A DNA stretch of 64,000 nt, taken from contig NZ_KB900373.1 of the NCBI RefSeq assembly GCF_000378725.1, forward strand, positions 62,001-126,000, in the 5' to 3' direction. Under the pieces are notes generated by a model. That model was not told the DNA's origin. It was given only the letters and a program-made list of their open reading frames with translations, and did no database searches. Positions 45,156 to 53,546 of the stretch are shown one piece after another (within the stretch, counting starts at the first letter, position 1; every line of letters begins with the position of its first letter). This DNA is from Peptoniphilus lacrimalis DSM 7455. Lineage in GTDB: Bacteria > Bacillota > Clostridia > Tissierellales > Peptoniphilaceae. Made by a program: the position numbers and the translations under genes.

Positions 45156-46292
45156 ATGGAAAAATTTAAAATAATTGCCACGACAAATTTTGGATTGGAA
45201 GCCCTATGCAAAAGAGAGCTTTTAGATTTGGGATACAATGATTTAAAAGTTCAAGACGGAAGAATAGAATTAACAGGAACATATAAAGATGTATGTGCTT
45301 TGAATTTGAATCTGAGAACAGCAGAAAGAATTTTTATGGTAGTTGCCTCTTTTGAGGCTCTAAGTTTTGAAGAACTTTTTGATAAAGTTTACGATATAGA
45401 TTGGACTTATTTTTTAAATGAAGATTCAAACTTTATTCTTCTGGCAAAAAGTCATAAATCAAAATTATTTTCTCTTTCAGATATACAAAGAATTTCTGAA
45501 AAGGCAATAATAAAAAAATTACAAAATAAATATAAAAAAGACTGGTTTTCTAAAAGTAATGAGAGAATAAAAATTGAAGTTTCTCTACTTGATGATATAG
45601 CCACAATTGCTATAGACACATCAGGAGATGGCTTACACAAAAGAGGATACAGACAAATTAATTACAAGGCTCCTATTTCAGAAACAATAGCCGCATCTAT
45701 GGTTATGCTTTCTTTTTGGAATCCTGAAAGACCACTAGCCGATCCTTTTTGTGGTTCGGGAACAATAGTGATAGAAGCTGCCATGATCGGGAAAAATATA
45801 GCCCCTGGACTTATGAGAAGATTTGACCTTCAAAATTTTATTTTTATTCCTCAAGAAATATTTAAGGAAGAAAAAAGAAAGTGCTATGAAAAAATTGATT
45901 ATGATAAGAAACTAAACATTAATGCATCTGATGTATCTTATAAGGCAATAGAAGTAGCAAAGAATAATTCAGCCATACTTGGCCTTGATGAAGATATTAA
46001 TTTCTTCCAAAAAGATATCCGCAATTTAGATCTTGAGGATAATTATGGAGTTTTAATCACAAACCCTCCCTATGGAGAAAGGCTTGCCGTAAAAGAAGCA
46101 CCGGAACTTAATAGAGAACTGGGAAGACTCTATAAGACTATACCAACTTGGTCTTTATATGCCATTACAGGCTCAGAAACTTTTCAAAAAGATTTTGGCA
46201 AAAAAGCCGACAGAAAAAGAAAGTTATACAACGGCAAAATAAAAACCTATTATTTTCAATATTATGGTCCTAGACCCTTTGTTAAGAAGTGA
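45156..46292 (+). CDS. THUMP-domain class I RNA methyltransferase (RlmL/YpsC-like)
   Basis: 378 residues. An N-terminal ferredoxin-like plus THUMP RNA-binding part (residues 1-155) is followed by a Rossmann methyltransferase domain. The catalytic NPPYGERL near residue 307 marks N2-guanine methyltransferases. LADPFCGSGTIVIEAAMIG is the SAM-binding motif I. The Bacillus relative YpsC and the first half of E. coli RlmL methylate 23S rRNA. GAGGTG precedes the ATG. The phosphatase gene follows after 35 bases, possibly with its own promoter. Confidence 0.88.
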   Translation: MEKFKIIATTNFGLEALCKRELLDLGYNDLKVQDGRIELTGTYKDVCALNLNLRTAERIFMVVASFEALSFEELFDKVYDIDWTYFLNEDSNFILLAKSHKSKLFSLSDIQRISEKAIIKKLQNKYKKDWFSKSNERIKIEVSLLDDIATIAIDTSGDGLHKRGYRQINYKAPISETIAASMVMLSFWNPERPLADPFCGSGTIVIEAAMIGKNIAPGLMRRFDLQNFIFIPQEIFKEEKRKCYEKIDYDKKLNINASDVSYKAIEVAKNNSAILGLDEDINFFQKDIRNLDLEDNYGVLITNPPYGERLAVKEAPELNRELGRLYKTIPTWSLYAITGSETFQKDFGKKADRKRKLYNGKIKTYYFQYYGPRPFVKK

Positions 46293-46327: not shown

Positions 46328-47413
46328 ATGGAAGAAGATTATTTATACTCGCAAAAAATTGACCATCAAGTATTAAATGGAATTGCCGATCCCATTAGAG
46401 TTTTAGATTCCGATGAAAGAGTTATATTTGTAAATGAAGCAATGGAAAAAACTCTTGGTTACGATAGAAAAAAATTGCTCTGTGACATTGATGAGAGTAT
46501 CTTCAACCCTGATATCACAAGAAGTGTCTTAAGAACTGGAGAAGTTGTCCAAAGAGAAGAGATAATAAAAGATACAATCTATTCAGTAAAATGCTCTCCA
46601 GTATTAGGTCAAAAGGGACAAATAATCGGAGTGGTAGAAGTTTTTAGAAATGTAACAGTGGAAAGAAGACTTCAAAGAGAAATAATAGAAAGAAACAGGT
46701 TCATGGTAAGAGAAACCATGGCAGCATCACAAATACAAAAAACAGTCTTACCCGACAAGGGCTTTATAAAAAATTTAAAAATTGACTATATTTACAAACC
46801 TTCAAATATGCTTTCAGGCGATATGTTTGATGTTTTTGAAATAAATGAAGATAATATTGCAGTTTATATTTCAGATTCAGTAGGGCATGGTTTTGCAGCA
46901 TCTATGGTAACCATGTTTATAAAATCTTTAATAAGAACTCTTCCAATTTTTATACTCTTATCGCCCGCTAAGACCCTTGATGCCATTTCAAACAGATTCT
47001 CTCTTTTGAAGCTTGATATTGAAAATTATTTCACATGTTTTTATGGAGTTTTCAATATAAAAAAAGGTATTTTTACATATGCTAATGCAGGGCATCTGCC
47101 CTTGCCCCTAAAGGTTTCAGAAAAAATTGAATATCTTCACGCTGAAGGAAATCCCATATCAAGATTTTTTAAGAGTGCAAAATATAAAGAAGAAAATTCA
47201 AAATTTTACGCTGGAGATAAGATATTATTTATGACTGATGGAGTAAGCGAATCAAGAAATCTTGAAGGAGAGGTTTATGGCTTAAAAAGACCTGAAGAAA
47301 TAATGTTAGAAAATGACATAGATGAACTTTCAATTTTGAAAGATAATTTACTTTCTTTTATGAATATTACACAGACAGATGATATTTCAGTACTTCTCTT
47401 GAGTGTGTGGTAG
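46328..47413 (+). CDS. PAS-domain SpoIIE/RsbU-type serine phosphatase
   Basis: 361 residues. A PAS sensor domain (about 15-115, with FVNEAMEKTLGYDRKKL) is joined by a helical linker to a PPM/SpoIIE-type phosphatase domain. That domain has the motifs MLSGDMFDVFEI, VGHGFAASMVTMF, TYANAGHLP and FMTDGVSE. Such enzymes dephosphorylate anti-anti-sigma factors or other phosphoproteins in stress or envelope signalling. No anti-sigma or STAS partner is encoded nearby. No membrane segment is seen. GGAGGTG precedes the ATG. Confidence 0.85.
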   Translation: MEEDYLYSQKIDHQVLNGIADPIRVLDSDERVIFVNEAMEKTLGYDRKKLLCDIDESIFNPDITRSVLRTGEVVQREEIIKDTIYSVKCSPVLGQKGQIIGVVEVFRNVTVERRLQREIIERNRFMVRETMAASQIQKTVLPDKGFIKNLKIDYIYKPSNMLSGDMFDVFEINEDNIAVYISDSVGHGFAASMVTMFIKSLIRTLPIFILLSPAKTLDAISNRFSLLKLDIENYFTCFYGVFNIKKGIFTYANAGHLPLPLKVSEKIEYLHAEGNPISRFFKSAKYKEENSKFYAGDKILFMTDGVSESRNLEGEVYGLKRPEEIMLENDIDELSILKDNLLSFMNITQTDDISVLLLSVW

Positions 47414-47432: not shown

Positions 47433-47500
47433 TTAGGGACAGTCCGCAAGGGACAGTCCCATGGGAAGAAAATTAGGGACAGTCCACAAGGGACAGTCCC
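47433..47500 (+). repeat. Two tandem REP-like GGGACAGTCC repeats
   Basis: Two 28-base copies (47433-47460 and 47473-47500) differ at a single base and are spaced 40 bases apart. Each holds two GGGACAGTCC palindromes separated by about four bases. GC content is far above the surroundings. Such GGGACwGTCCC units are common REP-like elements in clostridia and relatives, sometimes linked to tyrosine (RAYT) transposases; none is encoded here. They lie just after the phosphatase stop codon. Confidence 0.85.
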
Positions 47501-47627: not shown

Positions 47628-47687
47628 CTTAAAAATCTCTTAAAAAAATCTTAAAATTCTAGATTTTTATTACTTTTAGGGTATAAT
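47628..47687 (+). promoter_or_regulatory. Promoter region of the SLH gene with three 11-bp phased repeats
   Basis: CTTAAAA begins at 47628, 47639 and 47650, exactly 11 bases apart, so all copies face the same side of the helix. TATAAT follows at 47682-47687 with no good -35 box. This layout is typical of promoters activated by OmpR/PhoB-type response regulators. The transcript would carry a 5' leader of about 40 bases before the AAGGAGG site. Confidence 0.55.
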
Positions 47688-47731
47688 AGAAATACGGAGA
47701 ATGAAAACCGAATATTTAAGGAGGAAATTTT

Positions 47732-50338
47732 ATGAAAACTTATAGAAAACGTTTCATGGCATCGACACTTGCTTTACTTATGACAGTATCGATTCCACTT
47801 TCAGCACTAGCTGCAGAAAATGCAGGAACTGAAAATAATGGTTTAGAAATTAGCCAAGAATTAAATGAACAGCCAGTTTCTGGACCTTTGGGAGCTCCAG
47901 CAGATCCAGCTACTCCAAGTGAAGAAGATATTAAAAATGCAAAGGATGCATTAGATGGAGCTATTAAGGCTGCTGAAGACTATCAAAAAACTGATGATTA
48001 CAAAAATTCAAAAGTAGATAAAACAACTTTAGAAAATGCAATACAAGCAGCAAAAAATGCAAGAGCAGCTTTAGAAGGAACACCTTCAAAACAAGAAGTT
48101 GATACAATACCAGGAGTTGTAAATGCTCTGAATAATTCTTTACAAGATTTACAAGCTAAAGTAACTGAAGAAAAAGCTAAAGATGCATTAAAAAAAGCTA
48201 AAGAAGAATTAGAACAAGCTATAAATGATGCTGAAACTTTTAAATCAGATGAAAAATATACTAAAGGTTTAGAAGCTGATAAAACAGAGTTTGACAATGC
48301 TTTAGCAGCTGCAAAAACAGCTAAAGATGCAGCAGATGCAAGTGTAGATAGTTTAAATGCAGCAAAAACTAGATTAGTTGGTGCTCAAGAAAAACTTAAA
48401 AATGCACAACCACAACAAAAAGAAGCGGATAAATTTATTCCACAAACAAAGGCTTTAGAAGTAGAAAAGGGAAATGCTGTTGATATTAAAACTGGATTAT
48501 TAAATGCGCCAAATGATGCAACAGTAAATGTAAAAAAAGATGTAGATACATTAAAAGCAGGACTTCAAATTGGAGTATTAACAGTAAAATTTAATGATAA
48601 TTCAACAAAAGATGTAAATATAACTGTTAGCGTTACAGAAAAAACACCTGTTCCAAGCCCTACTTTAGTAATTTCTGGACAAAAAGTATCTTCTAAAGGT
48701 TATGTATCAGGTTATGTAAAAGCTGATGGACTTTTAGTTTCCGGTGTAAGTGTAAGTTTCTATACAAATGATGGAGTATTTGTTGCTAAGGGAAATACTG
48801 ATGCAAATGGATATTTTGAATTTTATGTAGGAACTGAATATTATAATTATTACTATGATGGATATTATAACGGATATTATAATGGACATAAGGTATATTA
48901 TGATTCAATTTACGGATATTACTACAAAAATTCCAACAATGATAGAGTTTATCTAAATGACTATTATTGGTATGGTAAGGATTATAGATGTGGCAAGAGT
49001 GGATATTTACTTGCAGAAAAATCTCTTTATACAACAAGCGAAAAAGCATATGTAAAAGGAAGTTGTGATTACAATAATTACTATTGGCAAGGCTCATACG
49101 ATAACAAATATTATGATTATAGAGTTTACCCAACAAGCGTATCTAGAACAACTTCTTATGTAAAGGGATATCTACCAAATGAAAAAGGTAGAACAGTTTC
49201 TGTTTACTCAAATGACTATTATAATGACGGATATTATAATGATGGGTACTATGATTCTTATGGAAATTGGCGCTACTACAATTACTATAATGGATACTAT
49301 AATAGATATTACAGAAATTCCAACTATTATTTAGGCTCAGCTACAGTTGATTCTGACGGATATTTCACTATTTACTTCAATAGAAGTGTTCCAACTTCTG
49401 AAAGTTTATATTACTATGTAGATGGCTATAAAGATGGAAGATATGCAACTGTTCCTAGCGTAAGTCAAGCTGAAGCTGGAACAATGTTTATAAAAGGTAA
49501 GGCAGGAAGCTATGCAAGCATAAGAGTTGAAGATGCCAAGGGTACAAAAATTGGATCAACAACTGCTAATAGTGACGGCGAATTTACTTGTTATTTAGAT
49601 AGAAAATTAAGTCTTGGTGAAACTATAAAAGTTATAGCTTCTGAATCTTCAAAATATGATTCACAAACTACTTATAAAGTTGTTGATACAAGCCTAAGCG
49701 GTCAAACTTATTCAAGAATTTCTTATATTAAGGGATATCCTGATGGAACATTCAAACCATCAAATAACGTAACAAGAGCAGAAGCTGCTCAAATGTTTGC
49801 TACATTATTAAATGGCGGAACAAGTTTTGGAACTTCTACTGTAACTAAGTTTACAGATGCTAACAACAAATGGTATTCACCTGCTGTAAGTTATATTGCT
49901 GGTAAGGGTCTTTTAAGTGGATATAGTGATGGAACTTTCAAACCTGATGCTGATATCACAAGAGCTGAATTTGCTCAAATGATTTCTGGATATCTAAAAG
50001 CTGGTTATGCTGGTTCTGCTAACTTTAAAGATGTTAAAGGACACTGGGCAAGTGATGCAATAGATAAAGTTTTTGGAAACAAAGCTGTTGAAGGTTACCC
50101 AGATGGAACATTCAAACCAAACAAAACTCTTACAAGAGCAGAAGCTGTTACAGTATTAAATGCTGTATTTAACAGATATACAACTTCTAACTCATTAAAT
50201 AATGTATCTTCTGCTAACTTAAAGAACTATTCTGATATATCTTCTTCACACTGGGCATATTATCAAATTCTAGATGCTTCAAATGCTCACGTATCTCAAA
50301 AAGTTACTTCAACAAGTAATGAAGAAGTTTGGAAATAA
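47732..50338 (+). CDS. Secreted SLH-domain surface protein with FIVAR, Ig-like and tyrosine-rich regions
   Basis: 868 residues. The signal peptide (1-28) ends LSALAAENA. Residues about 65-230 hold two or three helical FIVAR-like modules (KDALDGAIKAAEDYQ; KKAKEELEQAINDAE). Residues about 310-660 hold Ig-like beta modules (VKADGLLVSGVSVSFYTNDG; FIKGKAGSYASIRVEDAKG). Two insertions at about 369-425 and 490-533 are dominated by Tyr, Asn, Gly and Asp (for example YYDGYYNGYYNG). The C-terminal 200 residues contain three SLH repeats (YPDGTFKPSNNVTRAEAAQ and two more), which bind cell-wall polymers. It is a surface or S-layer-like protein, probably abundant. A second FIVAR protein lies at 61961. Confidence 0.9.
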   Translation: MKTYRKRFMASTLALLMTVSIPLSALAAENAGTENNGLEISQELNEQPVSGPLGAPADPATPSEEDIKNAKDALDGAIKAAEDYQKTDDYKNSKVDKTTLENAIQAAKNARAALEGTPSKQEVDTIPGVVNALNNSLQDLQAKVTEEKAKDALKKAKEELEQAINDAETFKSDEKYTKGLEADKTEFDNALAAAKTAKDAADASVDSLNAAKTRLVGAQEKLKNAQPQQKEADKFIPQTKALEVEKGNAVDIKTGLLNAPNDATVNVKKDVDTLKAGLQIGVLTVKFNDNSTKDVNITVSVTEKTPVPSPTLVISGQKVSSKGYVSGYVKADGLLVSGVSVSFYTNDGVFVAKGNTDANGYFEFYVGTEYYNYYYDGYYNGYYNGHKVYYDSIYGYYYKNSNNDRVYLNDYYWYGKDYRCGKSGYLLAEKSLYTTSEKAYVKGSCDYNNYYWQGSYDNKYYDYRVYPTSVSRTTSYVKGYLPNEKGRTVSVYSNDYYNDGYYNDGYYDSYGNWRYYNYYNGYYNRYYRNSNYYLGSATVDSDGYFTIYFNRSVPTSESLYYYVDGYKDGRYATVPSVSQAEAGTMFIKGKAGSYASIRVEDAKGTKIGSTTANSDGEFTCYLDRKLSLGETIKVIASESSKYDSQTTYKVVDTSLSGQTYSRISYIKGYPDGTFKPSNNVTRAEAAQMFATLLNGGTSFGTSTVTKFTDANNKWYSPAVSYIAGKGLLSGYSDGTFKPDADITRAEFAQMISGYLKAGYAGSANFKDVKGHWASDAIDKVFGNKAVEGYPDGTFKPNKTLTRAEAVTVLNAVFNRYTTSNSLNNVSSANLKNYSDISSSHWAYYQILDASNAHVSQKVTSTSNEEVWK

Positions 50339-50370
50339 GATAGTTTTGAAAATTGAATATTAAATATTAA

Positions 50371-50398
50371 GGAAGGGATTTTTATCCCTTCTTTTTTT
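50371..50398 (+). terminator. Intrinsic terminator after the SLH gene
   Basis: The stem GAAGGGA/TCCCTTC is followed by seven T. Confidence 0.85.
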
Positions 50399-53111: not shown

Positions 53112-53546
53112 ATGAAAATATTAGTACCAATTGATGGTTCCAAATCATCTAAGGCATCACTTAAAGAAGCTAGTAGTTTAGGTGAAAAATTACAAGCTGA
53201 ATTAATTATACTTACAGTTATTCCAGAAACAAGTATTTTTGAACAATATCCAACTAATTTTGCTTATGCACTTGAAGTTGATAAAGCTAATACTGAAAGA
53301 GCACAACATATTTTAAAAGAAGCCGAAAAAGATCTTAAAGATTTTCCTAATAAGGTAGAAACTTTCTACACATCAGGAAATCCTGCAGCTCAAATCTGCA
53401 AGTTTAGTGATGAAAAAGAAGTCGATCTTATCGTTATGGGTAATAGAGGTCTTGGAGCTTTCTCAAGAACTCTTTTAGGTTCAGTTTCTAATAAAGTAAT
53501 CAACCAATCTAGAGCATCAGTTTTAGTTGTAAAGGCAGATATTTAA
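53112..53546 (+). CDS. Universal stress protein, UspA family
   Basis: 144 residues, one Usp domain. It starts MKILVPIDGSKSSKASLKEA and ends with the ATP-binding GNRGLGAFSRTLLGSVS and the terminal strand ASVLVVKAD. The G-x2-G-x9-G-S/T motif is complete, so it should bind ATP. It is a small cytoplasmic stress or energy-state protein. AGGAG precedes the ATG, and it stands alone with its own promoter and terminator. Confidence 0.92.
   Translation: MKILVPIDGSKSSKASLKEASSLGEKLQAELIILTVIPETSIFEQYPTNFAYALEVDKANTERAQHILKEAEKDLKDFPNKVETFYTSGNPAAQICKFSDEKEVDLIVMGNRGLGAFSRTLLGSVSNKVINQSRASVLVVKADI

Follow-up and report, generated by a model that had tools for sequence, protein, structure and literature searches.

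What could runs of tyrosine, set into the Ig-like domains of a putatively wall-anchored protein, do at the surface of a bacterial cell? The question is raised by an ORF of 868 residues with an ATG start (47732-50338, forward strand), found in the ORF listing of the window, by which we mean the whole 64-kb stretch of DNA analysed here. The genome is 1.85 Mb in size, and its closest relatives among named contigs are Peptoniphilus species, anaerobic commensals and opportunists. The original prediction placed two segments rich in tyrosine, asparagine, and glycine at 48838-49340, and both are indeed present, corresponding to residues 369-536 of the ORF. In addition to the tyrosine contents listed in Table 1, the first segment (insertion 1) contains 12% Asn and 12% Gly and the second (insertion 2) 20% Asn and 9% Gly. 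We also noticed a third Tyr-rich stretch besides these two. The densest 50 residues of the protein hold 20 tyrosines, compared with 11 in the next-best of the 49 window ORFs of at least 150 aa, which were listed mechanically and might include a few that are not genes. With a tyrosine content of 4.35% in the 48 other ORFs (17,585 aa), a simple binomial gives a chance of about 8e-15 per 50-residue stretch for 20 tyrosines. The G+C content is 29.5%, and AT-richness does not explain the tyrosine excess, because SLH ORFs without the insertion hold 6-11 tyrosines per 50 residues (13 listed, 12 from the genus and one from a different genus in its family), and three further SLH proteins encoded in the window's genome hold 4-7.

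Table 1. Features of the SLH surface-protein gene and its product, with window positions
Feature	Position	Strand	Basis
TATAAT hexamer	47682-47687	+	direct reading; absent from the promoter-scan list
Shine-Dalgarno sequence AAGGAGG	47718..47724	+	direct reading
SLH surface-protein gene, 868 aa	47732..50338	+	ORF; Pfam SLH, Big_6, Rib, weak FIVAR; orthologues share the neighbourhood
Signal-peptide-like N-terminus, residues ~1-28	47732..47815	+	translation read by eye
FIVAR-like helical repeat, best stretch residues 156-222	48197..48397	+	Pfam, below cut-off
Rib domain, residues 231-303	48422..48640	+	Pfam; PDB sequence matches 6sx1, 6s5z
Ig/MG-like domain 1 (Ig1), residues ~315-443, hosting insertion 1	48674..49060	+	model strands; fold match
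Tyr insertion 1, residues 369-425, 37% Tyr	48836..49006	+	alignment, composition
Predicted beta-hairpin within insertion 1, residues 386-407	48887..48952	+	model strands 82-87, 91-95, 101-103; block pLDDT 64, 77, 51
Third Tyr-rich stretch, residues 438-462, 28% Tyr	49043..49117	+	alignment, composition; mostly low model confidence (blocks 39, 42)
Ig-like domain 2, residues ~463-568	49118..49435	+	alignment, model
Tyr insertion 2, residues 490-533, 41% Tyr	49199..49330	+	window protein only among 12 aligned; low model confidence
Big_6 Ig domain, residues 575-647	49454..49672	+	Pfam; Bap-like fold
SLH domains 1-3 (matched stretches) with VTRAE, ITRAE, LTRAE	49727..50146	+	Pfam; motifs read in the translation
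Terminator-like hairpin 3' of the gene	50369..50394	+	terminator scan

Pfam matched the protein to SLH (E 7.3e-40, in three stretches), to Big_6 (E 2.6e-14), and to Rib, with FIVAR, bMG3 (E 1.6e-5), and CarboxypepD_reg (E 0.0019) under its cut-off, and NCBIfam gave no match above its own cut-offs for the protein. The C-terminus belongs to the SLH part, ends in SNEEVWK, and carries no LPXTG signal. A promoter scan returned 11 sites, fewer than the 16.2 in shuffles, and two terminator-like hairpins were found in the region against a shuffle mean of 1.0. Upstream of the gene, the intergenic DNA at 47436-47499 contains four copies of GGGACAGTCC, which has no other copies in the window (0.02 expected) and looks like a small palindromic repeat element.

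The gene lies in a conserved neighbourhood, as seen in 11 loci of named Peptoniphilus species (L045-L055). Downstream, the window genes at 53112 and 53887, which we take to encode a universal stress protein and an acyl-CoA dehydrogenase, respectively, have relatives in all 11. Upstream, relatives of the window genes at 45156, presumably a methyltransferase, or at 46328, a PAS-SpoIIE protein by Pfam, occur in eight of the 11; the upstream DNA of L054 covers only 35 bases, and L052 and L055 show other genes in the stretch that was examined. The PAS-SpoIIE neighbour of P. timonensis appears as two ORFs (L050 2650-3763), which may reflect a disrupted gene or an error in sequencing.

We modelled residues 305-660 with AlphaFold2 using 11 sequences, 11 of the 12 orthologue rows being used in the structure alignments. 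The model is of moderate quality (mean pLDDT 71.8, pTM 0.35), with the loops as its weakest parts, and a second model of the P. senegalensis segment is weaker still (mean pLDDT 66.8). The flanks of insertion 1 in Ig1 (model residues 21-60 and 121-140) have pLDDT blocks of 86-94, insertion 1 itself, with its predicted hairpin, 48-77, and insertion 2 mostly 32-58. Ig1 matched E. coli alpha-2-macroglobulin with 76 residues aligned over model residues 6-138 (Z 9.2, r.m.s.d. 2.3, VIA-align), and insertion 1 is therefore extra to the fold. In the model, insertion 1 forms a loop on an Ig-like domain. The original prediction that the Tyr-rich segments are set in Ig-like modules is thus borne out for insertion 1 by the model together with the sub-cut-off bMG3 and CarboxypepD_reg matches, and for insertion 2 by the 11 orthologues whose sequence continues across that site with no insertion. 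The fold matches of Ig1 and of the Big_6 domain in the model are matches to common folds and show no function. A likeness of the inserts to choline-binding hairpins, suggested by the appearance of WYYYDSNG, gave no Pfam match up to E 10 among six inserts, a search in which the filters of HMMER and the shortness of the repeats can hide weak matches.

How far the layout is kept among relatives was assessed with 12 aligned orthologues, namely the window protein, those of nine named species, and those of two further genomes. Insertion 1 is found at the same place in all 12, with 50-76 residues and 26-42% Tyr (the residue count excludes row L021, which is nearly identical to L047). On an SLH protein it occurs in 12 of the 14 genomes of the genus. 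G005, which we infer to be P. ovalis, encodes at the locus a protein of 258 residues that consists of nothing but a signal-peptide-like start plus three SLH domains (L055 4860-5633), the exposed part having apparently been lost naturally, and carries the Tyr-rich Ig domain on two other proteins with a Cu_amine_oxidN1 end. In G004, the fourteenth, the contig ends inside the gene. With both kinds of ends combined, the Tyr-rich domain is present in 13 of the 14, and SLH paralogues without the insertion were seen in at least 11. Absence of the insertions from most relatives, together with poor expression or variation by slippage only, was the outcome that the original prediction named as telling against it. 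With insertion 1 retained on SLH proteins in 12 of 14 genomes, the prediction stands for this segment, whereas insertion 2 is absent from the 11 other aligned orthologues, which is one half of that outcome.

Outside the genus, other genera of the same family have Tyr-rich Ig proteins with a Cu_amine_oxidN1 end, identified by Pfam in four genomes (G149, G026, G137, G145) and as Cu_amine_oxidN1-type proteins by motif only in four others (G150, G017, G098, G138), and G148 encodes an SLH protein with a milder tyrosine content of 13 per 50 residues. A profile from seven of the 12 orthologues and five Cu_amine_oxidN1-type proteins (alignment A3, E 1e-5) matched 23 of 249 genomes of the order, all of one family, some of them by the Ig core only (e.g., G099 with 8 Tyr per 50). 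In a draw of 398 genomes from the phylum, four matched, the window's own and three without a Tyr-rich loop in the examined DNA. We rejected these three weak matches as a spread beyond the family; they carry only 5-8 Tyr per 50 residues, so that the Ig core was what matched. Across both samples, Tyr-rich copies were thus seen in one bacterial family only. Among the Cu_amine_oxidN1 proteins, two adjoining ones on the reverse strand of L109 (1949-3832 and 4152-6434) are both Tyr-rich Ig proteins, one with a GA module, which is of the albumin-binding type, and the other with Big_2 repeats. A second protein of G007 (L114 1685-3127) has a Tyr/Arg/Asp-rich stretch shortly behind its signal-peptide-like start, followed by Ig domains and a Cu_amine_oxidN1 end.

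The persistence of insertion 1 is accompanied by low dN/dS values where these could be obtained (0.28, 0.15, and 0.09, for three pairs out of seven); no usable ratio came from the remaining four, of which two had zero or one change in insertion 1 and two had saturated dS. The positions of the tyrosines in residues 367-462 agree in a fraction of 0.70 of comparisons, compared with 0.57 in 60 identically realigned shuffles (sd 0.03, largest 0.65), in a test using eight of the 12 rows. Non-tyrosine positions of the same region also agree above their shuffles (0.35 versus 0.16). Therefore, the whole sequence is conserved, and tyrosine is not singled out.

The anchoring side of a possible mechanism is well supported on sequence grounds. 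The protein has the three SLH domains and the TRAE-type motifs of an SLH protein. As described in PMC6081394 for the partner chemistry of SLH domains, such a motif contacts a pyruvylated polymer. A pyruvyltransferase-family gene (PF04230), presumably CsaB, was found above the cut-off in seven of seven genomes, including that of the window. The protein would be secreted and held on the cell wall by its three SLH domains, with a row of Ig-like domains above the anchor, the farthest of which would display the Tyr-rich loop (about 50-76 residues long across the orthologues), and with FIVAR/Rib or List_Bact repeats beyond this loop-bearing Ig domain. The loop would most likely act as a non-covalent binding patch in which tyrosines, placed among Asp, Arg, Asn, and Gly, make stacking, cation-pi, and hydrogen-bond contacts, and it probably makes the protein sticky. 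Tyr-rich antibody loops bind in a comparable way. The partner surface might belong to the host (a protein or a glycan) or to another bacterium, or it might be the corresponding loop of an adjacent cell. Insertion 2 would be an addition in the lineage of the window that enlarges the Tyr-rich surface.

The best reading in our view, with an about even chance of being correct, is that the Tyr-rich loop binds non-covalently and sits on a stalk anchored by SLH domains, and an adhesive role would fit the data best. The occurrence of the Tyr-rich Ig domain on Cu_amine_oxidN1 proteins as well argues for a binding loop, as do the constant place and low dN/dS of insertion 1 and the divergence of the outer half between species described below. 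The conservation of the non-tyrosine positions counts against it, as do the moderate model, weakest in its loops, and the case of the diatom Tyr-rich protein AC3362 discussed below.

A wider form of the binding-loop reading concerns how such a loop might vary. The outer half of the protein can diverge with the anchor being kept: between P. harei and P. vaginalis, the part from the N-terminus through the Tyr region is 34-45% identical and the SLH part 95%, with a dN of 0.019-0.058 for neighbour genes. This pattern is as would be expected of an exposed part that is exchanged or fast-changing. Exchange and fast amino-acid change are not separated by this pair, since one neighbour reaches a dS of 0.81, no lower than the 0.69 of the Ig1 core. 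The reverse pattern, with a nearly identical outer part, is seen between P. phoceensis and P. timonensis, a case that is no more than suggestive because one neighbour (dS 0.03) is equally close. It is conceivable, if somewhat doubtful, that the Ig scaffold with its Tyr/Asp/Arg/Asn/Gly loop is a surface module of one family, carried on SLH or Cu_amine_oxidN1 ends and strongly diverged or exchanged between species, and that this modular binding loop diversifies via recombination and short repeats. In composition and length variation, the loop of the module resembles antibody binding loops.

Instead of binding a partner of another kind, the Tyr-rich loops could give cohesion to the envelope or a biofilm by associating with themselves, in a sticker-type or amyloid-like manner, with the Ig modules as a stalk as in staphylococcal Bap. 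The closest fold matches are Bap domains, Bap is described as self-assembling into a functional amyloid (PMC4915627), and the loops are of low model confidence and biased composition; a diatom Tyr-rich protein with a role in the wall (PMC4220933) offers a precedent. However, the likeness to Bap covers the common Ig stalk and not the loops, and insertion 1, with its position-specific conservation and predicted hairpin, is not a degenerate tract throughout. Taken together, we regard self-association as fairly unlikely.

The insertions might also be a little-constrained expansion of low complexity, in which slippage of AT-rich repeats in a tolerant loop yields Tyr, Asn, and Asp from TAT, AAT, and GAT codons. 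This idea is favoured by insertion 2, which is present in one of the 12 aligned orthologues, that of the window; the 11 others read VYVYDDGTYLGSD or similar at the site, where the window protein has 36 additional residues. Tandem repeats in the DNA encoding the Tyr-rich segments have short units (12 nt x 2.2, 15 nt x 2.4, and 12 nt x 2.2), and this DNA also holds several imperfect repeats of 28-31 nt, which are common to insertions 1 and 2. The local DNA score between the two insertions is 42, compared with a mean of 30 and a best of 56 in codon shuffles (p ~0.03), a result by which insertion 2 is not established as a copy of insertion 1. Tandem copies also occur in relatives: L049 has 15 nt x 4.6 (83%), and L134 has a 51 nt x 2.4 duplication (1666-1785, 97%) inside the Tyr-rich loop, from which it follows that the loop length can change by repeat gain. 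Slippage may account for insertion 2. As an explanation of the Tyr-rich loop in general it is unlikely, given the dN/dS of 0.09-0.28 for insertion 1 in the measurable pairs, the agreement of the tyrosine positions above shuffles, and the presence of the Tyr-rich domain, with either anchor, in nearly all genomes of the genus (13 of 14).

It also seems quite unlikely that the clustered tyrosines are O-glycosylation sites that would make the protein a glycan carrier, like the Tyr-linked S-layer glycoproteins of Paenibacillus alvei and Thermoanaerobacter. Tyrosine O-glycosylation of S-layer proteins is established, but for P. alvei the description in PMC2943079 gives at least two glycosylated tyrosines rather than dozens. 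A Wzy_C gene is present in seven of seven genomes, yet in each genome the single match is no more than 1.6 kb away from that of the pyruvyltransferase and may therefore serve the wall polymer instead. A coat in which oxidised tyrosines covalently join neighbouring molecules through dityrosine, an idea that goes back to the original prediction and to which the high tyrosine density lends itself, is very improbable and found no support in the searches, as neither DyP (PF04261) nor PF00141 peroxidases matched in any of seven genomes (controls matched in 3 of 14 and 5 of 14, respectively; those for tyrosinase, PF00264, gave no match, which makes that search uninformative) and Peptoniphilus lives anaerobically.

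The original prediction knew of no SLH protein described as having this layout, and the layout itself, Tyr-rich insertions within the Ig-like modules of an SLH protein, is confirmed; in searches of the literature outside subscription papers, no such SLH protein turned up among the papers listed, judged by titles and the beginnings of abstracts. Its parts are of known kinds. Apparently no description exists of a Tyr-rich Ig loop on the SLH or Cu_amine_oxidN1 proteins of this family. We found little in the literature on the surface proteins of Peptoniphilus, for which a genus-wide Tyr-rich module at a fixed locus would be a concrete candidate for attachment or aggregation. According to PMC12660362, one of the three prominent bands in the medium of P. 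harei is E4KY84, a released SLH-domain protein with a calculated mass of 99.9 kDa. The P. harei orthologue of the window protein has a mass of 86.4 kDa, and E4KY84 is not assignable to it, SLH frames of 887 and 932 aa (G012) and of 949 aa (G003) being nearer in size.

How does the protein compare with known systems? With SLH proteins such as SpaA and SlhA of P. alvei and Sap, it shares the three SLH domains with TRAE motifs and the genomic pyruvyltransferase-family gene, and it matches the SLH structures of Sap (6bt4, 3pyw, 9g93) by sequence. Unlike these, the window protein and its relatives carry, above the anchor, Ig domains bearing Tyr-rich loops as well as repeats of the Rib/FIVAR or List_Bact type, and they give no sign of a lattice. 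The Big_6 domain resembles staphylococcal Bap (7c7u, Z 11.9, r.m.s.d. 2.0, 88 aligned), and a second Bap structure, 7dm0, was matched with Z 13.3 and an r.m.s.d. of 12.2 over 156 aligned residues, which is therefore not one rigid superposition. The identity is 19% in both matches, and the window protein differs from Bap in its SLH end and its Tyr-rich loop. The LPXTG sorting signal is a Bap-type feature that it does not have. Tyr-rich adhesive proteins, such as mussel foot proteins, and Tyr-rich wall proteins share with it the tyrosine-rich composition at a surface, a likeness that concerns composition. Diatom AC3362, picked for its mussel-glue-like tyrosine composition, is presented in PMC4220933 as a wall protein rather than an adhesin. 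A likeness in the Tyr-rich part itself is seen with the Cu_amine_oxidN1 (PF07833) proteins of the same family, five of which carry a Tyr-rich insertion at the same place of the Ig domain, with no SLH domains and instead a Cu_amine_oxidN1 end, recognised by Pfam in four of the five and by eye in that of L113.
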